Part shown: piece by piece, positions 3,271 through 61,000 of the stretch
Layout: the number at the start of each line of letters is the position of its first letter
Position numbering within the stretch: the first letter of the stretch is position 1
Assembly (NCBI GenBank): GCA_008508345.1
Contig: QNGE01000151.1
Location: 1-64,000, forward strand
Direction of reading: 5' to 3'
DNA length: 64,000 bases
Source of the DNA: Paragonimus westermani
Lineage: Eukaryota > Platyhelminthes > Trematoda > Plagiorchiida > Troglotrematidae
Translations under genes and position numbers: made by a program
The notes under the pieces: generated by a model
What the model saw: only the letters and a program-made list of their open reading frames with translations
What the model was told of the DNA's origin: nothing
Database searches by the model: none

Positions 3271-3281
3271 TCAATTTTCTG

Positions 3282-3593: not shown

Positions 3594-3690
3594 CATCAAA
3601 CCTGCAAGAATGTGCACTACTAGCGAGCTCTAATTAGATTAAAACTCGAGTCTAGTACGGTTTTTCTAAAAGAGGCTGGCCGGGAAGTTC
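3594..3690 (+). mobile_element. SINE 3' tail, + strand, head to head with the previous copy
   Basis: Carries the family tail: GAGCTCTAATTAGA, then AAAACTCGAGTCTAGTAC and AAGAGGCTGGC. Its 5' tRNA-like part is unrecognisable. It lies about 110 bases from the opposite-strand copy, so the pair could fold back. Confidence 0.55.
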
Positions 3691-4134
3691 ATCTGAATTC
3701 GAAGGTTGCGATCAAGTGTGAGTGATGTTCAATTTGAAAATTCTAAGATACATAGGGAACCATATGGGGGGAGCATGTCCAGTTTTGGCATATGGAAACT
3801 GATGAAGCCCAAACTGAACGAGATTAAAAGAAACGGTTGCAGTTATTGTTGTAAGGATGGAGATGATGAATCAAGTTCGAAACTAGGGAAAATAAACTAC
3901 AGAACCACCCTTCAGTACTGGCCAAACAGGGCACAGCAATCTCGAAAGTGATACAGCGCACCTCAATTAAATCAACACTGCACGCTGAAAACCGGCTGGT
4001 ATACCGAACTCTGGGTGACAGTTGGAGTAGCAGCGACTGACTGGTTCAAAGGATGGATTCGTACTCTTGGTTTTACTTATAAAAACCTGGTGTTATTCCT
4101 CAGACCTTTTCATTAACCAAAGTGAGCTGACGTC
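3691..4134. other. Unassigned stretch left of the BEL/Pao element
   Basis: Contains an 81-codon open frame (3706-3951, +) without recognisable motifs. It may include remains of the BEL/Pao 3' LTR, since the pol C-terminus lies immediately to the right on the - strand, but no paired LTR was found. Confidence 0.3.
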
Positions 4135-10730: not shown

Positions 10731-11047
10731 TTCCCTCGTCACAAATGTGGTCTGACGCTGGACTTTAAGAGTGTTCTTGTCATCTACCACAGATCATTCT
10801 GCTCGAGATATTTTGGTAGAATTTCAAATGTTGGGCTTTCACATTCGCAAAATTCAACAATGCTCCCTTGGCACGGTTTTCTTCCCTCACGGATGATATG
10901 TAAGCCCGAATTCTTAAACCATATCTCAATGTCTGTCAGTACAGGAAATGCGCTAGTTTTACTCTTCCACATGTAAAATGATTTCGATGGTGTGTCTGAT
11001 AAGCGTCCCCAGGTTAAGATGGCGTCTTTTGACATATAAAATCACCT
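10731..11047 (-). other. Unassigned stretch with an 83-codon open frame on the - strand
   Basis: The frame 11035-10784 starts at ATG and ends at a stop. It has a protein-like composition with few low-complexity runs and a Cys-rich segment (IVEFCECESPTF). I do not recognise it. It lies between two decayed CR1-like copies, so it could be a fragment of another mobile element or chance. Confidence 0.2.
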
Positions 11048-13800: not shown

Positions 13801-14861
13801 TACTCCCAACAACTGGTGGGTCTATAATTTACACACTTTGTAGTCGTCGCCTGCCTGATGGAAATCAGCCGTGGGTAGCAAAATCTGCCTTCAGAACGTG
13901 ATAAAATGATACATCCATAAACATCCGATGATAGTTCGGTGGTATCTCTCAGAACGTTTAAAATCATTGATTTCTGCAACTGAAAAGATTAAGACATTTG
14001 AAATGTTTCGTTTTGGCCGACCGTTAATCGGTTTATTCTTTATTTGGTGCCGAGGAATAAATTAGCGGTGGTTGGTGTCGCGACTTTGTAAGAACGTTTT
14101 CCACTGGAGTAGGTTTTTATGTCTGAATAATAGTTAATTGTCCCATGCTGACGAATGATGTATCGTATATAAGTTCGATGGGACATGCCTTGATACGTAT
14201 TCTGTCGAAAATGTATCCCATGGTCGGTGAGTTTCGAGTTCCAACGAGTTAAAAATTTGTTTACATAGGCAATTAAAGATTTACGGCGTTATTTACATGC
14301 TTGATTCGGGCAAAAATCGGGCGGTGAACGCTTAAATTATGATAATGTGGGCATGCGGTTTCGTGGCAGACGAACTACCAGTGTATAAAATGCAAACGAC
14401 GTAGGAGCACATGTCGCGGATAACGAAATGTTTAGTGACTTGAGTTCACATACTTCACACAGCACATTTGTCGAAATGATTGATGTCCTTCACGCCTTAC
14501 TATCGTTAGCAGAAAAACCAGGATAGTTATCCGCTCATTCACACTGGAGCACTACCAGGATACAACTGTCTTTCTGTACGATGCACATCTAAGTGATCGT
14601 CGGACTACTGCAGACGAAGGAGACGACTCGAGGCATCTGTTCGAGTGCAACACTCCAACTGTTTAGTTAAAACACTATTCTGCTGATGTTTACGGTACGT
14701 ACATAACGAATATGGGTATTTGCAACAACAACCATCAGTCAAAACGTCCTATAATATGTAAGTGGGTTCGCGTACAATAATGTTGCAGGAACTCGGCCTC
14801 AAATTCTGAATCCTTTGAAGGAAAACAGCGTACTGTCTGTTATGGAAGACACGGCTGGCAG
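13801..14861. other. No feature seen
   Basis: AT-rich sequence with no recognisable ORF, repeat partner or RNA motif. It ends at the 3' terminus of the - strand LINE. Confidence 0.4.
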
Positions 14862-15425
14862 CATCCGATTCGGATTAGCCCGTCACAGTTACCGAAGCCA
14901 AAGGACGCCTGCGTTTATCCATCACTGCAATTGGCTTGCTCTGCATCAATTGCAGTTCCACCAACACACCACATATCCAGTGTAAACCCGAAGGAATAAG
15001 ACTAGGAGATGTGCCGGTGGGGCCATTCTCTCCAGCCGGCCAATGCTGGTTAGCCATTTGATTGGCTAATAAAGAAAGGAAACCCCTATCTCTCGGATAC
15101 TAAACAGAGAGGCTGCAATGACGAGATCTACACTGAGAAGAAAGATTTTGAAGTGTAATACAAGAAGCGTTGCAGTATAGGAGTTCAGGTTAGTGCATCC
15201 CAGAGAAGAAAAGGATGAAAAGCAAAGTTCTCATTGGACTATGAAAAACCAGACAGACCATTCATCATACAATGCACCAACAAAGCCGGAGAAAAGAATG
15301 GGTAGAAGACCACAGACACTCAAGTTTCTGAAAAGAAGAGCGGATTAATTGTCAATGACCACGATGTTGGCCGATGCAGTCATTAACAGAAGTAGAATAA
15401 GTATACCGATATGACCTACCTGAGC

Positions 15426-18400
15426 CTAGCGTACTCGCCGCCTCTTCGCCGACGGGGTACTATGAGTACGTTGGTGACCTACCAGCCCCAAACGGCCAGC
15501 GCATTCGCGGCCGCACACATCACAACGCCATATAGTCACGTCACCGCGACCTATGGCACCGATGGTTCCTTTGCGTACCGCACGCTTCCGCTCGCGACCA
15601 CGCAATAGTTGCTCGTTGAACGCTCGGACGCCCGCCCGAACCGTATTCCTCCAGGCCGTCCGGTTCAACGCCAAATCTTCCCAACATCTAAAATCAATGT
15701 TACAACGTGAAAGACTTACCTGCACAACATCCTGGTACCTCCGCTTCTGGCCACCGGGATTTCGCTTACCTGACTTCACTTGTCCGTACAGTAACTGCTT
15801 CGGGATACGGTCATCGCCCATCCGACGGACGTGACCGAGCCAACGGAGCTGGTTCAGCATCAACATGGCTTCCATCCCGTCCATGTCCGCTCGCCGCATT
15901 ACCTCAGTGTTCGGAATCATGTCCGACCACCGAATACCCAAGATGCGCCTCAGACACTGAACATGGAAACGGCTCAAATAGCTCACGTTCCGCTGATACA
16001 GTGTCCACGTCTCACTGCCGTACAGCAGGATAGACAGCACCATTGAGCGGTAGACACACAACTTCGTGGCCATCTTCAGGCTGTGATTCTTCCAGACACG
16101 CCTTTCAAGACGTCCGAAAGCAGCGCTAGCCTTTGCCACACGCGCTCTCAACTCGCGGTCCACGGACAGATCTGTCGACAAGTTGCTACCCAAGTAGCAA
16201 AAATCCCCGCAGCCATTCACAGTGTCTCCAGCGATGCGAATTTCGGGTGGAGGTACACAAGCAGCACCTCCACCAGGAGAAGGCTGAAAAAACGAATACG
16301 TCTTACCTGTGTTGATGTCCAACCCGAACTTCGATGCTGCCGAAGCGAATGCTGTAGCTAGACGTTGCAGCTCTTCTTCGCTGTGCGCTAGCAAGGCGCT
16401 GTCATCGGCGAACAGAAGCATCCGCATCCTTGAGGTCTGCAGCCGGGTTGAGGCGCCAAATCGTCGGATATTCAACAGACGCCCGTCCGTCCGGTACTCC
16501 ACCTCGACACCATCCTCTCCAGAGTTCTGAAAAGCAACTGTTACCATCGCAGTCAAATATAAACTAAATAGGGCTGGGGCTAGAACACAACCCTGCTTCA
16601 CGCCAGTGACGATGTCGAAATCATCAGAGGTCGATCCACACGATTGCACCTTCGCCTTCATGCCCGCATGCAACAATCTAACCATATTGACGAACTTACC
16701 TGGACATCCAAACTTACCAAGCACCGTCCACAGCGCCTCGCGGTTCACGGAATCGAACGCTTTGGTGAAGTCCACGAACAGGGCATACAAGGGCTGATTC
16801 CGTTCTCGGCACTTCTCCTGAAGCTGTCGAGCAGCAAACACCAGGTCGATTGTACTCCGACTCGACCGAAATCCACACTGCTCCTCGGGAACATTCATCT
16901 CCAGAACGGACGCATTCAGTCGGTTCAGGAGGATTCTGGCAAGCACCTTGCCTGCACAGCTCAAGAGGCTGATACCTCGGTAGCTGTCGGTGCATTGCTT
17001 GCTACCCTTCCCTTTGAACAAGGGTACGATGAGGGCATCCTTGAAGTCTTGCGGCATCACCTCGTGCTCCCAGATGGAGTGAACCAGCTGGAGCAGAGCG
17101 CGTTCCAACGCCGGACCGCCATTCTTCAGGATCTCACCTGGCAGCCCATCCTCGCCTGCAGCCTTCCCGTTGCGCAGTTGACCAATCGCCCTCTGCAACT
17201 CCAGCAAGTCGGGGGCGAGAGCAAGCGAAGATTTGACGTCCTGTTGCGGCAGACTGTTAACAGTCGCCCAATCAATTGTAGTAGGGCGGTTTAACAGGCT
17301 GCCGAAGTGTTTGCGCCATATTCCCATGATGTCTTCCGGCTGGCTGCAAGAACAACCGGTGTCCACGTCTACCAGTGCTTTAGTAGACTGGATAGACGGA
17401 CCGAAGATCGCCTTAAGCGAATCGTAAAACTCCTTGTGTTGCCGACGATCTGCGAAGCCCTGCATGCGCTCGCCCTGTTTCCTCCACCAGTTGTCCTTAA
17501 TTCCGCGAACACGCTCAGCCAGTTGACGGCGGATATTCCGGAACCTAGTCTTCTTCGCTCCATTGCCAGGGTCCATTGTGCATGTGGCGAACGCGGCATT
17601 CTTCTCTCGTACCAAGTTGGAGATAGCCACGTTGTTGTCATCGAACCAATCCGGGCGTTTCTTGCGCTCCACACCGATCGTCTCGGTGGCTGCTACCATA
17701 ATCTGTTTCTTCAGTTGTTGCCACATACCCTCGGGGGTAGTGGGTACAGGAGCATTGTGCAGGCGAGCGACGACTGCACGTTGAAAGGCAGCCTTCGTCT
17801 CGAAGTTCTCCAACCTTCTGATATCCAGCTTCTGCCGTTGTCCAAAAGATCTACAATAAACGGACTTGCGTACATGGATAAACAATTTGGTCCTGACCAG
17901 CCTATGATCTGTGCTACATTCAGCCCCGCGCATCACTCGCGTGATGCGCACTTCACCAATGTCGCGCTGCCGCACAATCACGTAGTCAAGTAGGTGGTGG
18001 TGACCGCTTCGTGGATGAGTCCACGTCGTGATGTCGCTCGCATCCAGCTGGAATCGGGTGTTCGTGATAGCCAGCTCGTGAGTAGCACACAGGTGCAGCA
18101 GACGATCACCGTTCGCGTTGACTGAACCAATGCCGTAGGGTCCGAGGACTCCCGGCCAAGCTACAGAGTCGCGCCCAACTCTAGCGTTCAAGTCACCCAA
18201 AACAAACAGTCGGTCATTCACTGGCGCAGACCGGATTGTGGCGGACAGCTGATCATAGAACTGGTCCTTTGTATCATCAGTGTGACACATAGTTGGACCA
18301 TAAACACTAACAAATGTAGCACACTTACCTCGACCGAGTCGCAGGCGCATCGACAGCATTCGGGGGCTGATGCCGTGCGGTTCGCCTATCATCAAACCAT

Positions 18401-18956
18401 TGATGCGATCAGCGACTGCAAAACAGACACCATGCTCCCGAACACCGTCTGTCGGGTAGCCTATCCAGTAAAAAGTGTACCCGGCGCCTGCTTCCCGCAA
18501 CTTACCTTGGTCTGCAAGCCTTGTCTCACTCAAGGCTGCTACGTCGATTCCATACCGCCGCAGTTCCATCGCGATCAGGGCGGTGCGTCGTTCCGGCCGT
18601 TCTGTGGCGCTGCATCGATCCAGCAGAGTGCGCACGTTCCACGTCCCAACCGTAAGCGTGTTGCGTCCACGGGCCTGTCTCCAGTTGGTCTTCTGGGCAC
18701 TGAAACCTAGTTGAGCATTATCTGCTCGGGGGCTCGTGATTGGGGGGACGTATGAGGGTGAGTGTTTGGCAGTAGCATGTTTTCGCCTATCCACCCTGCC
18801 ATGTGCAGCAGATAGGGCGACCCGGTTTATCCTGCGCGACGGCCGATGCAGTATACTATTTGGTTTAGTTTGTATCATCATCATTGTAAGTATGGGCTTC
18901 GGATACTGCCAGGACGCCCAGACATGTGCAGGAGAGCGATTAGGGCCCTCAACCAA
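15426..18956 (-). CDS. LINE polyprotein: AP endonuclease, reverse transcriptase, C2H2 finger
   Basis: A 1,176-codon uninterrupted frame. It opens at a TTG (18956); the first ATG is at 18884 (codon 25), the likelier start. Endonuclease, about residues 100-340: GTWNVRTLLD, AALSETRL (catalytic Glu), VYGP, LGDLNARVG (Asp/Asn), TWTHPRSGHHHLLDYVI and STDHRLV (Asp-His). Reverse transcriptase, about 590-900: SYRGISLLS, FVDFTKAFDSVN (motif A), GVKQGCVLAPALFSLY (B) and LLFADDSALLAH (C, FADD). A thumb follows (LLYGSETWTL, LRWLGHVRRM), then the C-terminal finger CDVCGRECAGRLGLVGHQRTH, a C-x2-C-x12-H-x3-H pattern. All catalytic residues I can check are present, so it could encode an active product. The element lies near the RTE-like/CFDP2-like group by motif; exact clade uncertain. 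Confidence 0.9.
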   Translation of the reverse strand: MVEGPNRSPAHVWASWQYPKPILTMMMIQTKPNSILHRPSRRINRVALSAAHGRVDRRKHATAKHSPSYVPPITSPRADNAQLGFSAQKTNWRQARGRNTLTVGTWNVRTLLDRCSATERPERRTALIAMELRRYGIDVAALSETRLADQGKLREAGAGYTFYWIGYPTDGVREHGVCFAVADRINGLMIGEPHGISPRMLSMRLRLGRGKCATFVSVYGPTMCHTDDTKDQFYDQLSATIRSAPVNDRLFVLGDLNARVGRDSVAWPGVLGPYGIGSVNANGDRLLHLCATHELAITNTRFQLDASDITTWTHPRSGHHHLLDYVIVRQRDIGEVRITRVMRGAECSTDHRLVRTKLFIHVRKSVYCRSFGQRQKLDIRRLENFETKAAFQRAVVARLHNAPVPTTPEGMWQQLKKQIMVAATETIGVERKKRPDWFDDNNVAISNLVREKNAAFATCTMDPGNGAKKTRFRNIRRQLAERVRGIKDNWWRKQGERMQGFADRRQHKEFYDSLKAIFGPSIQSTKALVDVDTGCSCSQPEDIMGIWRKHFGSLLNRPTTIDWATVNSLPQQDVKSSLALAPDLLELQRAIGQLRNGKAAGEDGLPGEILKNGGPALERALLQLVHSIWEHEVMPQDFKDALIVPLFKGKGSKQCTDSYRGISLLSCAGKVLARILLNRLNASVLEMNVPEEQCGFRSSRSTIDLVFAARQLQEKCRERNQPLYALFVDFTKAFDSVNREALWTVLGKFGCPGKFVNMVRLLHAGMKAKVQSCGSTSDDFDIVTGVKQGCVLAPALFSLYLTAMVTVAFQNSGEDGVEVEYRTDGRLLNIRRFGASTRLQTSRMRMLLFADDSALLAHSEEELQRLATAFASAASKFGLDINTGKTYSFFQPSPGGGAACVPPPEIRIAGDTVNGCGDFCYLGSNLSTDLSVDRELRARVAKASAAFGRLERRVWKNHSLKMATKLCVYRSMVLSILLYGSETWTLYQRNVSYLSRFHVQCLRRILGIRWSDMIPNTEVMRRADMDGMEAMLMLNQLRWLGHVRRMGDDRIPKQLLYGQVKSGKRNPGGQKRRYQDVVQVSLSRCNIDFRCWEDLALNRTAWRNTVRAGVRAFNEQLLRGRERKRAVRKGTIGAIGRGDVTIWRCDVCGRECAGRLGLVGHQRTHSTPSAKRRRVR
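15770..16211 (-). repeat. 442-bp block identical to 59418-59859
   Basis: By direct reading no base differs between this block (offset 43648) and the second LINE copy. The copies differ at many sites on both sides; for example about twelve differences in the next 96 bases after 16211. It encodes part of the RT thumb region. Confidence 0.85.
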
Positions 18957-32268: not shown

Positions 32269-33758
32269 TTTTTTTATTGCATCAGAAGTCACGGTCCAGA
32301 AAGAGCCAGGGCATTTCAGGCAAATTAACGGGATGATAACGCATCAATGCTTGTCCAGAGCGAATTTAGGAATCAATCACAAGCAATCTGCCTCGCCAGA
32401 TTAACCGTTTCATGGACGAAAGTATTTGCTAGTGACAGTTTACTCCTGGTAGGACCGTCCTGTCAACAGCAAAACTTGGCATTTAGGTTGCAAACGTTTC
32501 ATCACCAGGCGAGGTGATGAAACGTTTGCAACCTAACTGCCAAGCTCGGCGAACATGTCAATACCAAAACCATCATCCCGAGCTACAAACAACACAACCA
32601 CTGTTCCCAACCATCAGAAGAAAAACTTATCGGTCGGTTCCCTTCTTTCTGCTTCAACAGATCTTGACTATCTAGATTGGAAAACCTTGAATCGTCATTC
32701 CCATACCATTTAATATTTGTCGTGCGTTAGTGACAGCATGTGGCCAAACTCAGCTCACATACGTCGCGATCATTATTCCACCGGATTCTAAGCCAAAGTT
32801 TTCACTAATTGTGTTCGTAGGTTATATTTACATCACGTTATCTTCAATAGTTTGATGGGCGTTCAGTAAGTTTCATGTGGAGTCATTTACATTGCTTGAG
32901 ACGGTTAAAAACGAATTGTCACCACCTTAGTGGCTCAGGTTTTGAAGAATTTCAGGAGGCTTCGGTCACACAGTAGTGAAACAATTGAGGCACGTAAGAT
33001 CTACCATACGACTACAGGCATAAAATTTGTCCGTATGGAGCGAAATATTGTGGTAATTCGCCAATATTTCTTAAACTGTGGGGGCATTTTTATATTCTGA
33101 TGTAGATCAATGCTGCAATAATGCATCTTTTTATGAACTACGAAGTTTTTCAGTAGTATTGCTTACGATTCTAACTAGTTCAGAGCCTTTTAGAAATCAC
33201 TGGAAAGACGGTAACGAGTGAATTGATGATTCATGTATACCTGTCTCGAAAAGGATATGTGACTGCTGAATAAACACAATGAACACTCAATCAGCTTCCT
33301 GTGGACTATCTGACCTAAGCCTATGTCCACCAAATATAGGCAAGTTTGCTGGAAAACTCCGTTTTAAGACAAATATATCATCGGGATCGAAAAATAACGG
33401 GACGTCTTGCCTACTTTCGGCATTGTAAACGAAGTAACAAATTACGGCCGTCTGTAAACCCTTTTTATGCCGTTATACCTATAACTGTCTTCATGTTACC
33501 CATGTACTCTGCTGAGGCCGTATATCCCAACCGTTTTACTGTAGCGAACATCTTGCTAACCGTGTGCATATGTTTCCGGGTTACTGTTTTCAGAACACCA
33601 TTATTATGGTTGGTGCTTCATGTAATATACGTAATGCATCCGGTTTGACAATCCCACGATGCAGCATGGGATAAGTGCATCACTGGAGATTCAAGAAGAA
33701 AAAAGGGTAGCCCAATGGTGCTGACTCATTCTCCATTTTTCGTAGCGTATTATTCTTC
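32269..33758. repeat. 1,490-bp block, first copy, ending at an N gap
   Basis: Identical to 33760-35249 (offset 1491) except for one base (A at about 33402, G at about 34893). It ends exactly at the ambiguous base. The open frame at 33346-33648 and its twin at 34837-35139 are the same sequence and have no recognised motif. Confidence 0.95.
32483..32536. repeat. Perfect 24-bp inverted repeat (hairpin), with twin at 33974-34027
   Basis: The left arm 32483-32506 and right arm 32513-32536 are exact reverse complements with a 6-base loop (AGGCGA). The right arm reads GGTGATGAAACGTTTGC and onward. Beyond the perfect part the arms remain partly complementary, for example GCCAAG on the right against CTTGGC on the left. 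Confidence 0.9.
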
Positions 33759-33759
33759 N
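33759..33759. other. Assembly gap (single N)
   Basis: The only ambiguous base I found in the window. Identical 1,490-bp blocks abut it on both sides. Confidence 0.97.
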
Positions 33760-35249
33760 TTTTTTTATTGCATCAGAAGTCACGGTCCAGAAAGAGCCAG
33801 GGCATTTCAGGCAAATTAACGGGATGATAACGCATCAATGCTTGTCCAGAGCGAATTTAGGAATCAATCACAAGCAATCTGCCTCGCCAGATTAACCGTT
33901 TCATGGACGAAAGTATTTGCTAGTGACAGTTTACTCCTGGTAGGACCGTCCTGTCAACAGCAAAACTTGGCATTTAGGTTGCAAACGTTTCATCACCAGG
34001 CGAGGTGATGAAACGTTTGCAACCTAACTGCCAAGCTCGGCGAACATGTCAATACCAAAACCATCATCCCGAGCTACAAACAACACAACCACTGTTCCCA
34101 ACCATCAGAAGAAAAACTTATCGGTCGGTTCCCTTCTTTCTGCTTCAACAGATCTTGACTATCTAGATTGGAAAACCTTGAATCGTCATTCCCATACCAT
34201 TTAATATTTGTCGTGCGTTAGTGACAGCATGTGGCCAAACTCAGCTCACATACGTCGCGATCATTATTCCACCGGATTCTAAGCCAAAGTTTTCACTAAT
34301 TGTGTTCGTAGGTTATATTTACATCACGTTATCTTCAATAGTTTGATGGGCGTTCAGTAAGTTTCATGTGGAGTCATTTACATTGCTTGAGACGGTTAAA
34401 AACGAATTGTCACCACCTTAGTGGCTCAGGTTTTGAAGAATTTCAGGAGGCTTCGGTCACACAGTAGTGAAACAATTGAGGCACGTAAGATCTACCATAC
34501 GACTACAGGCATAAAATTTGTCCGTATGGAGCGAAATATTGTGGTAATTCGCCAATATTTCTTAAACTGTGGGGGCATTTTTATATTCTGATGTAGATCA
34601 ATGCTGCAATAATGCATCTTTTTATGAACTACGAAGTTTTTCAGTAGTATTGCTTACGATTCTAACTAGTTCAGAGCCTTTTAGAAATCACTGGAAAGAC
34701 GGTAACGAGTGAATTGATGATTCATGTATACCTGTCTCGAAAAGGATATGTGACTGCTGAATAAACACAATGAACACTCAATCAGCTTCCTGTGGACTAT
34801 CTGACCTAAGCCTATGTCCACCAAATATAGGCAAGTTTGCTGGAAAACTCCGTTTTAAGACAAATATATCATCGGGATCGAAAAATAACGGGGCGTCTTG
34901 CCTACTTTCGGCATTGTAAACGAAGTAACAAATTACGGCCGTCTGTAAACCCTTTTTATGCCGTTATACCTATAACTGTCTTCATGTTACCCATGTACTC
35001 TGCTGAGGCCGTATATCCCAACCGTTTTACTGTAGCGAACATCTTGCTAACCGTGTGCATATGTTTCCGGGTTACTGTTTTCAGAACACCATTATTATGG
35101 TTGGTGCTTCATGTAATATACGTAATGCATCCGGTTTGACAATCCCACGATGCAGCATGGGATAAGTGCATCACTGGAGATTCAAGAAGAAAAAAGGGTA
35201 GCCCAATGGTGCTGACTCATTCTCCATTTTTCGTAGCGTATTATTCTTC
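33760..35249. repeat. 1,490-bp block, second copy, starting at the N gap
   Basis: Partner of 32269-33758. It starts with the same seven Ts as the first copy and ends at ATTATTCTTC, after which unique sequence continues. The pattern fits an unmerged contig overlap better than a biological tandem duplication. Confidence 0.95.
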
Positions 35250-37670
35250 CTTATAAACGATTGAAATGCAGTCGGCATAGACAGCGCCATATGCATGTTT
35301 CTTTATAGGTACTATGTCGTCCTAACCGAATAATGTTGGTGAGAGACGTAGTAAGCGGGAACTTACCTAAATGCTATGTATCCACCCATGGAACGTCAAA
35401 AGAGCAGCGATTTCTAAGTCACAATATGCAGATAGAGCAGTTACATTTCTGCCTCTTCTCACACCCGCTTTTGTTCACACCGCTGGTCTCACCCTATGTG
35501 TATACTAACTGGTCAGTGTGATGAACACTGTCAGAACTTATACCGCTGACATACGACAGACCTCCCCAAGTTACTGCACTTGCTGAAAAGTGGTTGTCAC
35601 AAGGAGTCAGCGATGCTGAGATCACTATCCTTGACCATTCTTTTTTCCATGCCGACTCTTTAAGAGGGTACAGCGGGTGTACGTTATTCATAGTCAACTT
35701 CCTGATATGTACAGCGTCAAGATATTGCATGCTAAACTCAGTGGCTTAGGTTCACTATCACTGATGGTTACATATTGTTTACCCTCGAATTGTCTTGTCG
35801 TGTTTTTATTGTCTTCCACCTCATTTTACTAGCCATGCATAATTACTTCACCGTACCACATTATACATATTTGTTTGGATTGATGAACAGATGCTACGTA
35901 CTGTTAAAAGAATCCTACCACGCGCAGATGTGGTTTCTTTCTACAGCGCCGGTGAATGTCCGTCACCCGAGACATCTTATTGCTGGGTTATATTTCAGTT
36001 CTATTGCTTCGCACAATCAGTTAGGCCGAAAACCTCTCCACCAATATTACTGAATATTTTAGTGACATAATCCATTTTAGATTAATCCCGTTTACTTTGT
36101 TGGTTATTTTATTTCGTCACTTGTTGGGGTTCATTTTTTTTACATATTGGTGAATTCTACATAACTGTTTAGTTTTGAACTGTCTCAGCTGTTTATTAAA
36201 GTTTACAGTAATTTTGTCAGTACCCTCATTGGTATCCGGATTTCCATTTTCCATCTTACCCACCCCCACCCCCCTAATTGCAGTTCGTAAGATTCACTCC
36301 TGTATTCAAAGCTCATAGTGTCGAATCGCAGCCTGTGGTGTATTCATACGTACTTCAGTCCATATCAGCGGAGATTGTGGAGAAGGTTTACAGCCCAATT
36401 CACAACATCCTTTTCAGCAATTCATGTGATGCTTGAAAAGATGCATTACTATATAAAAGCCGAATTATCAGGGCAATAATCTAGGGGACCAGAATTCGTC
36501 GCACCTGTTTCGGCATACGAGATCGTTGTGTGTACCCTCCAAGATGAGGGATTCTACTTTTCGTGAGTTGTGGTTTACACAGCTGCCACCGTCTAACTAC
36601 GAAATATTGATATCTTTTAACCTCATTTCGCGCATTGTGGAACTTTCTGACGCTGACGATAGGATGCTGGAGGTCAATCTATGCTAGCTAGAGCTCTTTG
36701 GCTTACACATTCCGTTCCGACAGACAAACGATACGTTCGCCAAGCACTTAGTTGTACTTACAGTGCAGAAGAAACAAGTGCTGAATCGCATTTTCCGTAG
36801 AAGTCGGTCATCTTTTAGCACGCGTTTACTCAGTTATCATTGTTTTTACACATGGAACACGTGTACACCATTTCGTTGACACCACCAATACTTTGAGCAC
36901 TGCGCAAGAAAGTGTAGTCAGTCATACTTTTCCGTCGAACGCATCCGTCAAATAGTAACGGTGACAATTGTCAGAGGCTTAGTTCCAAAACCCCACTCGC
37001 TTGTCATAGTAATTCGGTCTACTAAAGGTTTTTCAGTTATATCGGTGTCAAGGTGAATGTGTTCTAAGGATCACTTTAGCTTACATTGCAAACAACTGAT
37101 GGAAGTGGAATCGCAACGTACAGTACATGCTCACATACACTTGACATAGGCTTGCAGCAACAATTTCATTGGATGTTCATCATTGCTGATGTGGTTGCTG
37201 ACTTTTTGTCAGTTTTGAGCCAATGTTTAACGAAAAGACTTTCCGAATCACACTACGTTATAATCGATACACGACACGTGGACTAGACTTAGTTCTATCG
37301 GTTTGCTTTCAGACTCACCCGAGACTGTATTAAACTTTTCCACCTTACTGCAACTTACAACCTCTTCATACGACCCCATCACAGGTAACCGCAAAGTAGG
37401 TCATCAAATTCCAGCTACAAACCGCACTACCACAATCAGACCGCGTTGAGTACTTCTCCTGAGGCCGACAGCTTCTAAATCTGATTTCGATCACATGTTA
37501 CAGTCATGTAGTATTTAGTGATCAAGCAGCGGTCGATCAGTCTCATTGCGCACTGTTTCTGGACACTGAGCCGTTTAAAATTTGTGAATCAGTGTTTTCT
37601 CGCCAAATAATTTCACACTTCCTGATCGTTACCTTATTCCCTACAAAAAAAGACTTTTTCAAATTACGTA
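35250..37670. other. No gene seen
   Basis: AT-rich sequence with scattered short open frames and a C-rich tract near 36261-36276. No repeat partner or protein motif was recognised. Confidence 0.4.
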
Positions 37671-46000: not shown

Positions 46001-49000
46001 AAAATCAGTGAGAACGTTACTATGTACAGCAAGTAATTGGATTAGGTGGTTGCATAAACATTAACCAATCATACGTCAGTAGTTCGGACGACAGCTGATT
46101 TCGTCAGTTCGAAACGACTTCTCAACTGGCACACCTTATGATACAACTTAAGCTGGAAACGAGCATATAGGGAGAGATCGGTTGCTAGGAGTTTGAAGGC
46201 GTCCCTTAACATCAGAAGGTTAGACTCACCCATCGCCGTACGTATATCCACATCCCACAACTGAGGTGCTTTCTCCAGTAAAATACGTGAACTCTGGGAA
46301 AGATATGGTCTGACGCCAAATGACGAGCACACTCTAAATAATTCTGGTGTAGCAGCGTTACAGATGTACGAAAGTTGACATATATTTAAACCACTTAGTT
46401 CTGGTTATCGGTTCAGTAAAAATCAAAAGAGGACATTTGTGAAGGGATTTCAACACCTCTATACGTGCTGACCAGTCGCCAGCGCGAAATCGGAAAATTT
46501 TGACTAACTGCACATATCAACAACACCTGAATGGACCGCCCAAATTGATTCAATGTTTCACAAACTAAGGACACAAATGTTTCCACAACACACAGATTGA
46601 CTGTGTCAACGTATTCTGTGCAGTCTGACCGATGTCTTCAGTTTGGTGAAAAGCCATAACCGTGAGTAATCGACTTCAACTAGCAGGACTGTTTCTGTCT
46701 CTACTGATAGCGATATGGTAACCTGAGTCTTGATCGCATACGAACATGGCTGAGCGTTCGCATATGGAAAATCAGTCTTTCTTAGCGTGAATTACGTGGT
46801 TACTTCAATGAAGCATGAACGAAATATAATCCCGAAGGTGAACACTACTAAGTAGGTGTGGCGGGAGTGATCCGAATGTTAAGTGCTACTTTTCGAAAAA
46901 GGGTTGACCCCAAAGACAAAATGAATGTGATAAGTGTCATTTGTTGCAACTGATGCTCAATTGATATCAATAAGATGATCTCTGCAATCCATCAGTGATT
47001 ACCAATGGCTCACAAATCTGTAGCAATTTCGGATTACGGTTAGATAACAACATCCATACCAAGCAGGAGGTCGGGCACTAGAGTCGGTTTGGTAGTCGAG
47101 TTTGCTGGAATCAACAGATCGCATGTGTAACTACAGTTGATGACCACGTAAGAAAATTTGCTGATATACGCTGTTGCAAGTGTCGATCTTTTCTGCTTAT
47201 GCTGACGCCAGCACAACGGCAACCGAACGGGTATATTACGTAAGGAGCACACTGGTCGGTTGAATATGTATCACCACCATAGGAATTTAATCTCTTGGCA
47301 AGTGAACAGCTGGATAGTTGCGTTGCCGTGCCAATGTCCGCTTGTGGCCCAATATGTTGGTCAACTGTTCACCTTGTGAAGTGAATTTGCAGAAACGTTC
47401 CTTCTCTCCAGATCAGTGCCTTCTTTTTACAATGGATATTCGCCAACTTGCTCGGATAACCATCATTCCCCTGCTTTTCCCTGACCAGCGAGCTCTAACT
47501 GTTTATTCTATATAGGTGATCATACTGTCTGCGTGTAAGTCACAAGCGACAGTAATTAGGTACCCACGGATAGAAAACTGATTATGCCAAATTCGAGCCC
47601 AATGGCTCACTGACTGCCTGTTGAGAACAAGGCCGGAGTTCAAGTCTTTATCGTAACATGGATGCACACTAATAGAATTAAAGGTAAAACTCGAGTCTAG
47701 TGAAATTTTTCGAAAGTGACGAGTAGTCTACTTAAGTGTAAAAGGTGCTATCAAATATGTTGTTAAATTATAATGTGAAGTTGGCTCCTAATGAGCGTAC
47801 AGCATACGACACAGGTTAGTAATTGACAAATGAACACGTTCTGTGGCAAAATTATGTGTGCGAAAAGAGACTGGAGAACCTCATGTCACACCTTTTGTTC
47901 ACGGGATATAGAAGCATTGTTTACGAGCGAGTATCATTACGATAGACAACTTATTTTAAATTTGGTTCTGTCTTCCTACATTGGACGCTTCTAGTCCTTC
48001 ACAGAATACCCCTAACATTCGGTTGGACAAAACTGTCGCGCTCAAACATGCATAAGTAATTATTTGTCGTTTGGTTATCACTTGCTGTGTAGGGGCTGTA
48101 AATTTACGAACACGATATATACGTACATCGCAAACTTCACAGCTGATAAATAAGTCAGTTCTGTTTCACTTGCTGTGATTTAGCTTCGTTTACGGTCAAT
48201 TTATACTTAACATACCATAATGAAAGAAAGAAGATAGTCAGACATTTTTCCGGCTGCCTCTAGACAGGGAAAGATTTGATTTCGATACATTCTGGTTGCT
48301 ACTGCCGATTGCGCAGTCGTTTCTTGAGTAGACATTTGTCCGGCCTGTCTGTCTGTCTGTTTGTCATTTTTCATTTTAACATATGCCTATATCTCTTGAA
48401 TTGAAGATATCTAAGAAAGCCAAGAAGATAAACCTATCGAGTACATCTCAGTCAAGAACTCAAATTGGAAAAACTGAGAACATTAGCACTGAAAAGAAGT
48501 GGCGACTTGTTGCCAAATGTTACCGATCTCAAGTAGGATTTGGCCAAATGCTCAGCAGGCATGACAGCTAAACGAAAATCATATTACCATATGGTAAAAA
48601 CAGATTAACTTGGAATAACACAACGTTACGAGCAAGTTGTAATTGGCGTTGAAATTGTGAATTGGCATTGAAACCATACAAAAAACTTTTTTTTGTGATA
48701 TGTGACAGTAACTCTAATCCCATTACGTTGTACTGTAGAGAGAAGTGGCGGCTCTTCATTGCAAAATCCAACCTTTTGAAGTGATCGATGTGCGTGTTCT
48801 CTAGTGGTTATCACTGCATAGAATACACAAACACTGTTCCAGCCACATTAGTTATTTTCCTCTTCAAACCTTGGGCCACCTTCCCTTACTTTAACTTGGT
48901 GACCTGGACCACTTCTACCATTATAGGCTCTACCTCAGCTGAAACCGCACTTATGAATGGACAGGTTTTGGGTTTTCATTCTACTTAATTACGATAACGG

Positions 49001-52000
49001 AGGTGGACACTTAATTCGGTTATGCAGAAAAACGGTTGTCATTTTGTATTTTCAAGTTGACCATTACTCACATTTGATCGCAGCGTTCGCATTCAGATAG
49101 ACTTTGCAGCCAGCCTCTTTCGAAAAGAAGCACTAGACTCGAGTTTCGCTCTCATTAGAGCTCGTCAGTAGTGCATATCCTTGCCACGGCCGGGATTTGA
49201 ACTCCGGACATTCCAATCATGAGGCAACCGTGTTAACCACTGCGCCATTGACCTCACATTAGGCACGACCGAATTATCACATCTGAACGCTCAACCACTC
49301 TCGCTTGTGAGCACCATTCTGAAAATAGCATGCTGTCTTGCCTGTCGGAAATTTCCACTTTTTTGCATAACCGTACCGTAGTGTTTCATGAGTACGTATC
49401 AATGATCTGCCGGAATCCAAACTTCAGTTCATAACAGCACGTGCACTTAACTTTGGTTCCCTGCGAAAAATATACGGATGCTGACAAGCGATCATGCTGA
49501 CAAAAATGTCGTACGCTCCACATGAATCTTCGTTCGATCACCTTCTTGCTGCTAGTTGCCAGTTTCCTGTAAGGTTACTGGGTGGATTTCCATAATATCA
49601 TCTAACGGTGAGAAGTTGGGACATGAAACATGTTTGCGCATTCAAAATACGACACATCTAGACAGTAAGGTGATATAGGTTGTTAACGACGTGTGTACTG
49701 AATTGTGAGCTCCATCGTGCGTGAGATAACCCGCACGATTAGATTGCAACGGAGTAAGCAACTTCAGACACGTTTCCATTAACTTGTGTGAGTGCCATCC
49801 GCTTACAATTATATATCTGGTAGTCTAACAAAATATAGGCACAAGATAGATTTCGACCATCGATATAAAAATATCCTTGAAATGAGGTCTCCGAGGACTA
49901 CCATGTTACGGCCACTTTTCGCTATGTGAGTTCCATGAATTTTATAAATTACACTCTCTCAATGCATAACAGAGTAAGGAATTTTCGGTGGTCAACACAA
50001 AGTCAGGAAATATATCGTCCGCAGATTGTCCATCAACCATTTTTTGAGTGAATTGTTTACGGAACTCCAACCGGATCGAGTTTATTGCCAGCTATTTTTT
50101 TGGCCAAAAATTAGGCTCAGCCAAAGCATCACATTTGAATGTTCAGTTACAACCGTTTGCGAGTGACACTCACGTTGTCCGACAGAGTAACTGGGACAGC
50201 TGTTAGCAGCGGTGACCATTCTTTAATGAACAGGAATGTCACAAGGAACCTGGGTTGTCGTAAACATTTGTCACAGTACGGTACCGGTTTACACATGTTT
50301 GATTGGCGGGTCGAACTACCAACTGGTTTTAGATTATTGCACCGTCTTGTAGCTATGTAACCACTTTGAAGCAAAGTTTGCAACCCACCGTGCATCTGTT
50401 TGTTAAGCCACACTAACATATGGGTTTGAATATCTGCAAGAATATGTTCAGCAAGGGTTTGGGTACTGTAGGTTGGTTTCGGCTTTCGGGCTAGGGCTCC
50501 CACGACTCGCAGACTCAGTGACTGAAAACGTTGGGCGAAATGGCGGCCAATCGGACTCAGTGGGTTAAATGGTATCGTTGTTCCAGCGAGTTGCTTGTGA
50601 TGTGAGTGCACTTAGTAGCTTTTAGGAGCGAAAGCCTTGGGGAAGTTGCCTTGTTTATAAATACTTAGTTTCACTTATAGCTCAGTTGTTTTCCTGCAAG
50701 GTGTGATCACCTTGATATTGAGTAAGTGAATAATGCCGTAGCTATTTTTGGTAGTCACGTCACCTTTTCCCCTGTTTTCCTCCCTGGTCGCGTTCTTTTT
50801 CTTCATGGCTTTATGACATTGAGGACCACTGACCTGTTACTGTCTATGATGATGAGAAACGGTGGGGGTATTGGATCAGTCTCAGTTGTTTCGACCACGC
50901 AGTCGGTGGTCTTTTTTGACGTTTGTAGTCAAAAGATAACGTGCATCAAATCCGGCATGTTTACTCCGAAGCAGGCACAATCATCCTGATGAGTCAGTTA
51001 TTTTCAGCACAAATATTATGATTTTTTTCATGAAAATTCTTAGAAAACACTTTGTCGGTTTTGTGATTTTTTTTACCACGCCTCAAGTGTGTATGCCCAA
51101 CGAACGTTCATAGCACATCATTCTGTGAGATTGACAGGCTGGACGTAGATACTGAGTCATTTGCGAGTTATTCCTTACTGTGTATCTTGGATTCACCGGA
51201 GTCCGTAGGATTTCGAGGTGGATCGGGTTTATACGCATTTCTTGCAAGCGTAACTGGTGTCTTCTCCGATCTATGGACTAAATTGAGTCAGGGATACCGA
51301 GAATAATACTTTTCTAACAACCTATCATATTTTACCGATTTTCTTCTGCTCGCGTTACTGAAATTTTGAAGTTCCGCCTACTAACTTAGCAAGGTGAAAG
51401 TTCTGAATGGAAATATTTTCGTTTTGGGCAGGTGGATTTTAAGACTATATTTTTAAGTGGCAAGTTGTTTTTATTCTTACTCCTGAATAAAGACCGTAAA
51501 CTCCGATGGATTGGTGATGGTGAATAACTGGAAACCACCACATAAAATTGATAAACAGATTGGGAATAACACAACGTTTCGAGCAAGTTGTAATACTCTA
51601 CGTTTCAGCCACCTCGGGTGGCCTTCCTCAGGAGTGTTGATCACATAAAATGTTTGACAAGTGGAGCAGACGATGTTTGTGGTGGCCTCGCTACGCATTA
51701 GTTTTTACGTACAACATAGGCACATCGTCATGGTCGCTTAGGGTAATTATTTGAGAAAGTCAGATTCCTTGCATGGACCACGTAGTCATGCATGTCTTTG
51801 AAAGTACACCTCCACGTCATATTGGTTTAAGGTCAAGCGAAATCAAGCTATCGGGGCGTTACTTCTGTTTGGGGGTTGTTCTCACACGTGACATCCAGTG
51901 CGCTTTGTTTTTGTATTCCGAGTGACGGCTGGTCAGCACGACTCTGTGTTTGTATTACTAATAATGTTGATTCAGATCTTAGTCCTATTACCAATTATGT

Positions 52001-55000: not shown

Positions 55001-58000
55001 GTAGATGGTTTAATACGGTCACATAATTCTTGCAGACCGATTCATAGTTTGGCCTGGAATTAGTTGTAAGAGAAATGCATATGCGAAATATGGGTTATAT
55101 GTGACCCATCTGCTGGTTCTAAGGTTAAGAAATTCATGGCTATTGTAACGGCAGGCAACTTATTGATTATAAGCCGAGTTACACCGGAAGGCTTGGTAGA
55201 ACACTCGTGATTAGTCACTCTTGTCACTACCAGTAAACCACTGCAATATAGTTTGTACGCACGCAGACAATACGTATTATACACACGTAATCATGTTGAA
55301 AGGGAGTATCATTAGTTATGCAGTTGGCAGATTCATGCAAACGGATAGTGGCCAATATCGAGGTTGTTGTCCGGTTTGTGTACCTAGAAAGCTGTATTAA
55401 CGACGGCGAAAGTGTGGGGAATGAGGTAGAAATGCGTATCTCTAAGGCTAGGTTGGCATTCGTTAATCTGGGGGTACATTTAGCAACAGAGAGCTATCTC
55501 TCTGCAGCTTAAGAGTCGCGTATATAAGGCTACAGTGAGAGCTCCATTTCGTTATATCGGCAAAAATTGGTTGTTCAGGTTTGAAAACGTGAGCTGTCTT
55601 CTGGTATTCGACCATAGATGTCTGCATGCGATCGCGCGTATCGAGTGAAACTAGTGAGTAAGTAACGAGAAAGTTAGAAAGCTGGTGTTTGGCGATGATT
55701 GTCGGACCAGTTCTTTTGTTTAGTCTTACATTTGCACAAACTTGTATGGTTAGGTCATGCAGTAAGGATGCCAGCTGGTCGCTTGCAACACCGAGCACTC
55801 TTTGCCGACCGGCGGAAGGTGCGAGATGAAATGATGAAGACCTGGCGTAATGAAATGAAGTCGTTTACCAAGGGATTGGCCACTATAGGTCGGGTTCGCC
55901 TCCCAGGCTGGGGATCTCGTGGCACACAGTCGATGGCTGGGGACTTCAGGTGAGATGGCGGCTAATGGAACTCAGTGGCGTGAATGTTGTCGCTGTCTGT
56001 CTGAGTTGTCTGCCACAGAACTTCTTTTTAGACTAACGTGGGAACTTACCGGTAGAGATATCTCATGTGATGATTCTGCCGTGTCTAATGTGAGATTGTT
56101 GGCGCAGTGATCGATAAGGTTACCTCCTGGAAGCGTGGCCAGATTTTTACTCCTGGCGATTGCAATTATGACGAGCCCTAATAAGAGCGAAATTCGAGTT
56201 TAGTACTTCTTTTCGAAGCCAAATGACTGAGATGTCCACGGAATTGTGACAGTTGTACTCATTTGTGAATGATATTCAAACACTTGCTAACCTTTAGTAA
56301 TAAAGGCACTCAAATAGATATCTAGAACAGCACACTAGGTTTGAGGTTACACGTAGCCCTATCACAGACATGAATATTGTTGTTGTGTTACCATGTTGTT
56401 TGTGAATTAAGTATAATCACTGTCAAGGACTAGTAAAACTCTGTGGAAGCTGCTTTGTTGAAAACACTACTTTCACTTATAGCTTACTTATTTTTATGCA
56501 AAATATAGCTACATTCCTGTTAAAAGTTTAAATTTGTGCATAAATGTCTTAATAAAATGTTGAATCCCGTTTCCTTTCTAATTTGAGAATGCTTCTACCC
56601 ATGGTTGTATAATATTTAAACTTTGGTGTGGTGCACTGATGTATTTTGTTGCTTATAAGAATGATGATGACCCTGTAATGGAACAGGAAGCAGTATTCGA
56701 TATGCTGCCTAAAAACAGGATGTTCCAATTCGGTTAACAACTCCCTGTGTTTGTACTCACTTGTGGTGGCGTGAGTTTGACCTAGCATTTACCTTAGAAT
56801 TCACACTGCATATCTCAGCGATGTTTGGGGGAAGATCCCCTCATGTATCACTAAAGTCTTGTTGGTGTTTAGTAAGTTGAGACAGCAACGGTTCTAGTGT
56901 GACATTGGGCAAGATATACAAAGCGACCCTACTGAATGTTCAGGTGTACTTTGCGAAGCAGGCTCACTTTGTGCCTGTGATATTCGTGGCACATCTTTTT
57001 TGGCCACCTTCTTGTATAGATCATTACTATGCTAGAGATGATGAGGTTTGACGATATTTTGGAAAAAATGCCAACTTTGTTTGAAAAGGTCGGTGGGACA
57101 CATGATTGTCCGTCAGCTACTATATCACGTCTTGTTTGTGCTTACTTAGTGTATCATGAGAAAAACAGAACGATAGACATCGCATGGTTGAGTGTTCAGG
57201 TAGAATATAATATCATGTTTTTGGCTGCATCCGGTGATAGGTAAAAAAGACAGATTGTCACTAGTTAAAGATATTGCAAGGTAAAGTTGCACGTCAGAGT
57301 CCTTGATACGAATACTGTTGTGCTTATTTTCTGGACTTTCTTTAGTTAGCAATCTACAGATTTTTTTTATAACAATCCAAAACAGAAACAAAAATGTACC
57401 AAAAAATTTAGTGCGATGTAAAACAGATAAATAAGAATTCTTGATTCTTTGTCAACGGCTTTTATCTTGTATCACATCTTTTTGATTCGCCATACTACTT
57501 TTGGACATTTATGTTTGTTATATGACTATTAATCTTCATTGAACCTGCTATAAGTTCCGTGTATCCCAGTACAACCACTAGTCGTAGTACCTATTTTCCG
57601 CGCTACCACTCGCACTTTCCTTGTGCGAAGTTGTACAGAATGCCCTTCAAAGCAAATGATATTCAGTAAGAATAGTAGTATGATTAAAAATTATAGTAAT
57701 TAATTAGCTTTAGAAACTGTGACATCCTGACTCTATGTTGTAGTGCAATCTTCCTGTATTTATTAACTGTATGTGGCCAGCAACCTATCCCAAGTAATAA
57801 TAGGCCCACCTTTAAGAAAGACTGTTGAGGTTCTTGTAGTGATAACCGTGAAACAAGTGGTACTGTCGTCTAAGCTGCCTGTCTCTATTGTGATAGCTCG
57901 TGAATACGTGCCGAAGTCCGTCTGGGCTCAGGCATTGTGGCTCAAACATTATGCGGTGTCTGATCTCGATAAATTTTCTGTTCCGTAGATCCAAAAGGCA

Positions 58001-61000
58001 ACTGTCAAAGTTGTTCATGTACTGCAACAAGCAGGCTAAGAACGAACACCAGTCACATGCAAGTGTGGACGCAGAGTGAAAACAGGTGCACGAATCAACA
58101 TGAGCATCGGTTGTACTGAGTGGACGATCACACGATTTACCAGACAAATCTACTAGGTACGGCACACACGCTCGGATACGGCATGGCGAACAATTGGTGA
58201 ATGTTCGAACGAAGAACACACGAAAGTGTAAACGCATATGGTTGGCGGCATCCGATTCGGATTAGCCTGTCATAGTGACCGAAGCCAAAGGACGCCTGCG
58301 CTTATCCATCAATGCAATTGGCTTGCGCTGCACCACGTGCAGTTCCACCCACACACCACATATCCAGTGTAAACCCGAAGGAATAAGACCGGGAGGTGTG
58401 CCAGTAGGTCCTTTGTGTCCAGTCGGCCAATGCTGGTTAGCCAGTTGATTGGCAAATAAGGAAAGGAAACTCTTATCTCTCGAAAACTAAACAGTGAGAG
58501 GTTGCAATGACGAGATCTAAACTAGGAAGAAAGATTTGTGAAGTGGAATACAAGAAGCATTTCAGTGTAGGAGTGCAAGTTAGTGCATCCCAGAGGATAT
58601 GACGATGAAAAACAGTTAACATTGAACTACGAAAAGCCAGAGAGACCAACAGGTTGGGAATAACACAACGTTATGAGCAAGCTGTAATACTCTACGTTTC
58701 AAACACCTCGGGTGGTCTTCCTCAGGAGTGTGGTAGTCAATTACAACACTCCTGAGGAAGGCCACCCGAGGTGGTTGAAACGTAGAATATTACAACTTGC
58801 TCGTAACGATGTGTTATTTCCAATGTGTTTATCAATAACATGTTAAACACGACGCCCAAACTATTCAACTTCACTCGTACTAAATGTTGTGCGGATATCT
58901 TACAGCCAGACAGACCACTCATCATACAATACAGCAACAAAGCCGAAGAAATGAATGGGTAGAAGACCACGGACACTCAAGTTTCAGGAAAGCAGAGCGG
59001 ATTAATTGTCAACGGCCAGGCTATTGGCCGATGCAGTCATTAACAGGAGTAGAATGGATACACTGATATGACCTACCGGAGCCTAACGTACTCGTCGCCT
59101 GTTCGCCAACGGGGTACGTTGGTGACCCACTAACCCCAAACGGCCAACGCATTCGCGGCCGCACACATCGCAACGCCATATAGTCACCTCACCGCGACCT
59201 ATGACACCGATGGTTCCTTTGTGTGCCACACGCTTCCGCTCGCGGTCACGCGATAATTGCTTGTTGAACTTTCGCACACCCGACCGAACCGTATTTCTCC
59301 AGGCCGTCCAGTTCGACGCCAAATCTTCCCAACATCTAAAATCAATGTTACAACGTGAAAGACTAACCTACACAACATCCTGGTACCTTCGCGTCTGACC
59401 ACCGAGATTTCGCTTATCTGACTTCACTTGTCCGTACAGTAACTGCTTCGGGATACGGTCATCGCCCATCCGACGGACGTGACCGAGCCAACGGAGCTGG
59501 TTCAGCATCAACATGGCTTCCATCCCGTCCATGTCCGCTCGCCGCATTACCTCAGTGTTCGGAATCATGTCCGACCACCGAATACCCAAGATGCGCCTCA
59601 GACACTGAACATGGAAACGGCTCAAATAGCTCACGTTCCGCTGATACAGTGTCCACGTCTCACTGCCGTACAGCAGGATAGACAGCACCATTGAGCGGTA
59701 GACACACAACTTCGTGGCCATCTTCAGGCTGTGATTCTTCCAGACACGCCTTTCAAGACGTCCGAAAGCAGCGCTAGCCTTTGCCACACGCGCTCTCAAC
59801 TCGCGGTCCACGGACAGATCTGTCGACAAGTTGCTACCCAAGTAGCAAAAATCCCCGCAACCATTCACAGTGTCTCCAGAGATGCTAATTTTGGTTGGAG
59901 TTAAACAAGCAGCACCCCCACCAGGAGAAGGCTGAAAAAACAAAAACGTCTTACCTGTGTTGATGTCCAACCCGAACTTCGATGCTGCCGAAGCGAACGC
60001 TGTAGCTAGACGTTGCAGCTCTTCTTCACTGTGTGCTAGCAATGCGCTGTCATCTGCGAACAGAAGCATGCGCATCGTTGAGGTCTGTAGCCGGGTTGAG
60101 ACGCCAAATCGTCGGATATTCAACAGACGCCCGTTTGTCCGGTACTCCACCTCGACGCCATCCTCTCCAGAGTTCTGAAAAGCAACTGTTACCATCGCAG
60201 TCAAATATAAGTTAACTAGGGCTTGGAGTAGAACACAACCCAGTGACGATGTCAAAATCATCAGAGGTCGATCCACACGATTGCACCTTCGCCTTTATGC
60301 CCACATGCAACAATCTAACCATATTGACGAACTTACCTGGACATCCAAACACAGCGCCTCGCGGCTCGCGGAATCAAAGGCCTTGGTGAAGTCCACGAAC
60401 AGGGCATACAGAGTCTGATTCCGTTTCCGGCACTTCTCCTGAAGCTGTCGAGCAGCAAACACCAGGTCGATCGTACTTCGACTAGCCCGGAACCTACCGT
60501 GCTCCTCGGGAACATTCACCTCCAAAACGGTTGCATTCAGTCGGTTCAGGAGGATTCCGGCAACTACCTTGCCTGCACAGCTGAACAGGATGATACCCCG
60601 GTAGCTGTCGGCGTACTGCTTGCTACCCTTGACTTTGAAGAAGGGGACGATAAGGGCGTCCTTGAAGTCTTGCAGCATCGCCTCGTGCTCCTAAATGGAG
60701 TGAACCAGCTGGAGCAGAGCGCGTTCCAACGCCGGCCCTCCATTCTTCAGGATCTCATCTGGCAGCCCATCCTCGCCTGCGGCTTTCCCGTTGTGCAGTT
60801 GACCAATCGCTCTCTGCAGCTCCAGCAGATACGCGCTTGCACACACACCTTGTCGGTGATTTACATGTTCAGTGCTGCCGACGGCACTATACGTGTGCTG
60901 CAAGATGGCCTCCAACGAAGAACGTGTTTTTAAATGGTTATGAATATCCGTACATTATACACTCGCATCTTTTGAACAGCAAAACTCATAATGTCCAGTA

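Follow-up and report, generated by a model that had tools for sequence, protein, structure and literature searches.

The question raised by this locus is whether an insertion that folds back on itself and carries hammerhead-like motifs on both strands, at 58635..58917, is a new kind of ribozyme-bearing element or the product of a known one. It lies in a window of 64,000 nucleotides, the whole stretch of DNA analysed (contig QNGE01000151.1 of the Paragonimus westermani assembly GCA_008508345.1, positions 1 to 64,000). An earlier reading, made from the letters alone (the sequence-only reading), saw in it a foldback element set apart from Penelope-like elements (PLEs) by its inverted arrangement. 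We find instead that the insertion is most likely PLE-derived: a new family member, not a new kind of foldback. Its features and those related to it are:

58240..60954, minus strand: host LINE, with reverse transcriptase (RT) matches to PF00078 in 59371-60690
58635..58648: left target-site duplication (TSD), AGCCAGAGAGACCA; the site is present once, at 15247-15260, in the other LINE
58649..58738, minus strand: left (inverted) arm, in which about 7 nt of the family 5' end (TTGATAA...) are missing
58686..58732, minus strand: opposite-strand hammerhead-like core in the left arm, its CTGAGGA beginning at 58725 on that strand; stem II is interrupted in the window copy
58739..58835, plus strand: right arm, a pLTR-like unit of family form GATTACAACACTCCTGAGG...CTGTTTATCAA
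58745..58791, plus strand: stem-III-less hammerhead-like core in the right arm, predicted cleavage after 58784
58836..58903, plus strand: tail outside the palindrome; in the family, most 3' ends fall in a cluster at ...GATATCTTACA, with some lying about 15 nt beyond
58840..58903, plus strand: beginning of a reading frame within the tail; its family majority, MLNTTPKLFNFIRTKFGADIL, resembles a PLE-type N-terminal motif
58904..58917: right TSD, AGCCAGACAGACCA
15247..15260: empty target site in the paralogous LINE copy
51547..51639, minus strand: solo unit of the insertion's family, 98% identical over 93 nt, without tail or second arm
48598..48643, minus strand: short fragment of the insertion's unit, 89% identical

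The insertion itself is real, as the sequence-only reading had it: 255 bp (58649-58903) stand between 14-bp duplications with a single mismatch (13 of 14 bases identical), and the paralogous LINE (~14853-18956) holds the target site once. The host LINE lies on the minus strand with its frame ending at 59368, so that the insertion sits in the LINE 3' UTR, again in agreement with that reading. Matches to the PF00078 RT occur in both LINE copies, and endonuclease domains in the longer of the two: in the paralogous copy, 15426-18956 (minus strand) is an unbroken frame of 1,176 codons with endonuclease and RT domains.

Within the window the inverted arms are read at 58648-58735 and 58742-58829, each 88 nt long, 89% complementary and spaced by 6 nt. 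Comparison with the family places the arm limits at 58649-58738 and 58739-58835, followed by a 68-nt non-palindromic tail at 58836-58903. The inverted arms of the proposed 255-bp foldback thus stand, whereas its tail had not been told apart from them. No ORF for an RT or an endonuclease exists within the 255 bp, and the insertion was rightly said to lack coding capacity, except that its tail contains the first ~21 codons of the frame from 58840. The solo unit at 51547..51639 stands, as read by eye, between CACATAAAAT repeats.

We searched the window's own assembly (823 Mb, 9,701 contigs) for relatives, ranking them by similarity to the window's copy. Further copies with the same ends do occur, a point on which the sequence-only reading is borne out: 40 places, the window copy included, were scored of 1,949 first-look candidates, and all 40 match in reverse too, so both arms are present in each. 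A fixed-position sample of long contigs (20 stretches of 10 kb, in all 200,000 bases including 12,336 N), too small to yield a copy number, contained one close copy and one match at 71%. Of the other 39 loci, twenty were aligned, with their flanks, to the window copy. The 21 rows have sharp ends, and their majority sequence is a perfect palindrome of 2 x 97 nt, free of mismatches, with a 69-nt tail. It reads TTGATAAACAG...TTGTAATC up to the centre and GATTACAA...CTGTTTATCAA beyond it, then TAACATGTTAAAC...GATATCTTACA in the tail. As these first 40 copies were ranked by likeness to the window's palindrome, their uniform junctions are partly a matter of selection. The tail starts with ATG and is open throughout in 20 of 21 rows; the remaining row, L016, is read from another ATG.

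For TSD scoring the remaining 19 loci were added to the 20 and the window copy, each set against 30 shuffles of its own flank. The score exceeded all 30 shuffles in 26 of 40 loci, and 23 of these 26 TSDs are 11-16 bp long; L014, which would have been the 27th, was excluded, its match falling within the element. In the other 14 loci the TSD is not beyond chance, or invalid. Among the 30 loci scoring 9 or more, 27 have their right end -4 to +3 nt from GATATCTTACA, the exceptions being L021, which ends about 15 nt further, L014 and L039. Five of the 40 loci represent two insertions seen repeatedly (L028-L030; L043-L044).

Several lines of evidence point to a PLE source. The insertion is made of inverted, head-to-head pLTR-like units with a palindromic junction, a one-sided tail running into a frame, and TSDs; by sequence and pairing, a minimal hammerhead without stem III also lies in the unit, which we infer to be a pLTR. 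Inverted pLTRs, palindromic junctions, a tail at the ORF start and TSDs have all been described for PLEs, hence the PLE-derived reading. In Adineta vaga, a PLE insert comprises pLTR-ORF-pLTR next to an inverted pLTR, together with a TSD, and palindromes lie at the inverted junctions; a 31-bp tail is optional at one inverted pLTR, and pLTR plus tail reach the first 22 codons (PMC3846280). Inverted pLTRs in PLEs are also reported in PMC8969392, and the inverted arrangement consequently does not set the insertion apart from PLEs, contrary to what had been claimed. In PAc, a PLE of Anolis, two internal sites early in the ORF serve as starts of reverse transcription and delimit the tail; cutting and extension affect both target strands, and hammerhead cleavage is dispensable in vitro (PMC11167929).

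The tail frame MLNTTPKLFNFIRTKFGADILQLINN resembles a PLE-type N-terminal motif, as measured by a position score built on 27 of the 29 PLE-type proteins in an alignment (P0069 was omitted before alignment, P0099 and P0037 after). Its score was reached by 57 of 20,000 shuffles and by 2 of 1,795 genomic 26-mers starting with M. The resemblance is weak and short, and we regard it as moderate evidence from sequence comparison. No protein in the catalogue shared three words with the tail peptide.

PLE-type RT pieces are present in the genome (L065, L066). We assign them to the PLE type by a sequence motif and by one match (P0016) with PF01541, a name that none of the sources gives them. The best relatives that bear a name are proteins of trematodes (Dicrocoelium, Paragonimus, Schistosoma), which on their own would make a trematode the probable host, and the database names of related RTs are unnamed, uncharacterized, hypothetical, reverse transcriptase domain-containing, or none; among the 120 matches listed, one, P0016 of Stylophora, also carries PF01541. 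Of seven PLE-type pieces examined with Pfam, five contain RVT_1, three of these below the curated cut-off, one has a weak DUF6133 and one is without a match. In L065 (7603-8257) the unit and tail lie directly against the YVDD catalytic motif of a PLE-type RT, with N on the far side. A GIY-YIG-like frame was seen by eye in L066 (2910-3242, minus strand), unconfirmed by Pfam, and after its end a degenerate CTGAAGA hairpin, likewise by eye. No autonomous PLE with the insertion's pLTR and ORF start was seen: none of the 20 copies selected by their tail continues into a shared ORF, the 3.5 kb upstream of L088 match no PLE-type protein, and C5:192860-198320, between two copies with the same flank, holds no PLE.

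Among known systems, the family resembles Pen2a of A. vaga (PMC3846280) in its head-to-head inverted pLTR, palindromic junctions and TSD, in an optional one-sided tail into the first ORF codons and in an inverted pLTR that is shorter than the direct one. It differs in having no ORF body between the pLTRs, in its many short copies, and in its longer TSDs (11-16 bp in 23 of the 26 good ones, against 8, 9 and 10 bp in the A. vaga examples given there). With PAc, a Poseidon element of Anolis carolinensis, it would share two adjacent RT starts in the early ORF that bound the tail, and it shares a minimal hammerhead at the pLTR-ORF junction; the ATG follows the hammerhead in the window family, whereas the PAc ORF begins at stem II (PMC11167929). 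Short PLE-derived repeats in number are also found as nonautonomous Penelope elements in Heliconius butterflies (PMC6685494).

As the sequence-only reading stated of the hammerhead-like core, CTGAGGA, a stem II and GAAAC occur in each arm, on opposite strands. In the right arm, stem I is formed, imperfectly, by AACACTC/GAATATT, followed by CTGAGGA at 58752-58758, stem II at 58759-58776 and GAAACGTA at 58777-58784. Uninterrupted base pairs in stem II of the window copy number 7 (right arm) and 4 (left arm); in stem I, 5 of 8 positions pair in either arm. The family majority unit, AACACUC CUGAGGA A GGCCACC CGA GGUGGUU GAAAC GUA GAGUAUU, pairs better (6 of 7 in stem I, 7 of 7 in stem II), the window's copies being more worn. 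Its stem III amounts to 2 bp (A-U, C-G) without a loop, so that a lone unit should not cleave. Judging from the sequence, a stem III could form only between two copies of the unit pairing through ACGU, as a dimer.

Variants of PLE hammerheads that lack stem III were reportedly described by Cervera and de la Pena in 2014 and by Lunse et al. in 2017. The window's units are like these in their CUGANGA, stem II, GAAAC and want of a proper stem III, with a palindromic ACGU that would permit dimers; they differ in being inverted, not tandem. Reviews likewise call PLE hammerheads minimal and devoid of helix III (PMC6155905, PMC7229834, PMC6466107), and double-hammerhead dimers and tandem copies are mentioned in one of them (PMC6466107).

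A descriptor written after the sequence was seen (CTGANGA, stem II of at least 5 bp, GAAACGTH) matches the window twice, at 58752 (plus) and 51631 (minus), missing the left arm at 58725; it gave 0 matches in 150 order-1 Markov windows of the same length. The Rfam hammerhead models found nothing in 58501-59000 or 51501-51700, even at E up to 10, a rejection of the core that the sequence-only reading had itself named as counting against it and that, on its face, does. The best Rfam matches in the foldback, to microRNA-precursor models, are below their thresholds and were set aside, long hairpins tending to give such matches.

The predicted folds also speak against cleavage by the foldback RNA. 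The 263-nt majority RNA folds as a 97-bp hairpin of -192.8 kcal/mol, and the 47-nt unit reaches -11.0 in its hammerhead fold against -13.6 in its best fold. Each strand of the foldback RNA offers one sense unit, paired to its own complement; since, moreover, the hammerhead fold is not the unit's best, cleavage by this RNA is doubtful, and the two opposed hammerheads are unlikely to be the working ribozyme pair once suggested. The predicted cleavage site, after GUA, lies 46 nt from the palindrome's centre, which rules out hammerhead cleavage as the origin of that centre. In the right arm, 12 of 407 core positions depart from the majority, compared with 110 of 3,180; the left-arm counts are 8 of 407 and 167 of 3,180. 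The right arm gives no clear sign of selection on the core sequence, while the left-arm core has a lower rate.

The variants of the arms bear on how the palindrome arose. We compared them in 37 distinct copies, after dropping L029, L030 and L044 as the same insertions as L028 and L043. At sites 32 and 7, which have the commonest shared variants, the arms agree in 36 of 37 copies (21 A/A, 15 T/T, 1 discordant) and in 35 of 37, respectively. Nineteen variants occur in both arms at once, 13 of these being confined to a single copy, and the 37 copies make up 17 both-arm haplotypes. Concordance is lower elsewhere: T at site 75 is in both arms of 4 copies and left only in 5, T at site 49 in both arms of 4 and right only in 3, C at site 41 in both arms of 1 and left only in 5. 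Overall the arms mismatch at 201 of 3,585 positions, which we read as later mutation.

Six pairs of copies share two or more left-only variants, against a randomised mean of 5.1 (six pairs were reached in 811 of 2,000 runs), and no pair among the 37 has two right-only variants in common. Linked left-arm variants, of which L027 and L046 share three, were considered as a trace of spread en bloc and rejected, this maximum being reached in 582 of 2,000 randomised runs. Variants shared within copies, together with left-only sharing at the random level, imply that the palindrome was seemingly made anew at insertion, and they render it unlikely that the insertion spreads as a foldback element. It looks as if each palindrome was freshly made from one template, or as if its arms had been converted; conversion between arms could account for their concordance.

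A second sample was chosen by the tail alone: 20 copies, from 20 of 40 places, these 40 being the ones scored of 131. Nine have both arms, with varying junctions, and three copies (L071, L080, L086) extend further into ...GTGATTTCGATTAC than the common ATCGAT centre. Seven have a right arm only, the 215 nt retrieved upstream of the tail containing no left arm; a TSD was recognised in two of them (L072, L081). One, L070, is complex. In the remaining three, L077, L078 and L085, the tail is joined to an inverted left arm of ~42-90 nt, the right arm is reduced to ~4-9 nt, and the TSDs measure 9, 13 and 14 bp (scored without a shuffle control); L085 has an N at the junction. Later deletion could have produced these unmatched left arms.

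We therefore propose the following course of events, and think it probable that the insertion is a short, ORF-less product of the machinery of a Penelope-like retrotransposon with such a twin-primed origin. The insert would be composed of an inverted pLTR end, a direct pLTR end and the first ~65 nt of the ORF as the tail, between target duplications of ~14 bp. The PLE endonuclease would make a staggered cut at the target. One target 3' end would prime reverse transcription just before the ATG, giving the left, inverted arm (family start TTGATAAACAG), and the other would prime ~65 nt into the ORF, giving the tail and right arm. Both cDNAs would extend toward the 5' part of the pLTR, their 3' ends joining at short self-complementary stretches such as TCGA to form a palindrome; the common centre ATCGAT may thus be two cDNA ends joined at a self-complementary TCGA. 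Were the tail-primed cDNA to halt at the first start site, the right arm would be all but missing between left arm and tail. In this scheme the hammerhead would be a passenger of the pLTR. The anatomy, the family, its ends and TSDs, the concordance of the arms and the copies with an unmatched left arm are observed; the PLE source, the priming events and the joining are deduced from them.

In its most specific form, which we hold only tentatively and at somewhat below even chances, PLE insertion is a twin priming in which one RNA is copied from two fixed internal start sites, each serving one of the cut target strands. Where the second RT displaced the first cDNA, the RNA would be copied twice, yielding a palindrome whose arms share every variant; where it stopped, an unmatched inverted arm would result. 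One caveat comes from PAc: in the window family 69 nt separate the two ends, which are allotted to different sides of the insert, whereas the PAc start sites show no strand difference (PMC11167929).

The same PLE source could have given rise to the palindrome by snap-back self-priming, one strand folding back and copying itself, and to this we assign a minor though real chance. Perfect palindromes and private variants common to both arms are what copying one strand twice should produce. Self-priming on an antisense template is moreover the favoured model for A. vaga PLEs in PMC3846280, where the proposal rests on palindromes at inverted junctions. A fold-back cannot, however, yield a left arm that is absent from the right side, and L077, L078 and L085 have one, with TSDs; the left arm of the aligned copies also ends near one point, matching a place 69 nt short of the tail end. 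Taken together, the within-copy arm variants and the 3 of 20 copies with unmatched left arms fit two-site twin priming better than snap-back.

Models that dispense with a PLE fare far worse. A foldback or MITE-like DNA element multiplying as a palindrome by transposase would suit the near-uniform copies of 255-263 bp with the same ends and long inverted repeats, yet we judge it very improbable: the repeats are not terminal, a tail following the second arm; 7 of the 20 tail-selected copies are without a left arm; arm variants are common within copies and not inherited by arm; and TSD length varies where it should be fixed. Hardly any credence, in our view, is due to a retrozyme-like or other ribozyme element whose inverted hammerheads process the RNA. 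The core motifs do occur on both strands, but, to go by known hammerheads, cleavage is not to be expected of a lone unit whose stem III has 2 bp and lacks a loop. The complement of the sense unit pairs with it, the junction is not set by cleavage predicted 46 nt from the centre, and core conservation is restricted to a lower rate in the left arm, with no clear selection in the right. A retrozyme would have its units in direct tandem; here they are opposed, one sense unit per strand.

If true, twin priming on one RNA would explain the inverted pLTRs of PLEs, their one-sided tail and the shorter inverted pLTR, with no need for self-priming or antisense templates. A family of copies this short, whose ends, junctions and arm variants can be read, is a natural record of single integration events and can separate snap-back, two-RNA and one-RNA models. 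The view that opposed hammerheads are the sign of a new ribozyme element is corrected as well.

The window contains further repeats. A type I hammerhead that is not part of the foldback insertion lies at 49130-49174 (minus strand), above the Rfam threshold with 34.7 bits. It belongs to a short repeat with GGGATTTGAACTCCGG nearby and related stretches at 3287-3482, 3604-3741 and 56065-56217. GGGATTTGAACTCCGG is reminiscent of a tRNA B box and of SMalpha-like SINEs; ARAGORN found no tRNA. The hammerhead looks to be of the retrozyme/SMalpha type. Retrozymes and SMalpha-like elements with type I hammerheads resemble the foldback family in placing a hammerhead within a short non-autonomous repeat, and differ from it in their direct arrangement and full stem III. 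Elsewhere, a 1,493-bp sequence occurs twice, side by side, at 32269-35252; the copies are 99.87% identical, and either one includes 70 bp matching their own reverse complement at 91%. A 1.6-kb repeat is duplicated at 1680-3277 and 9135-10732, with 98% identity.
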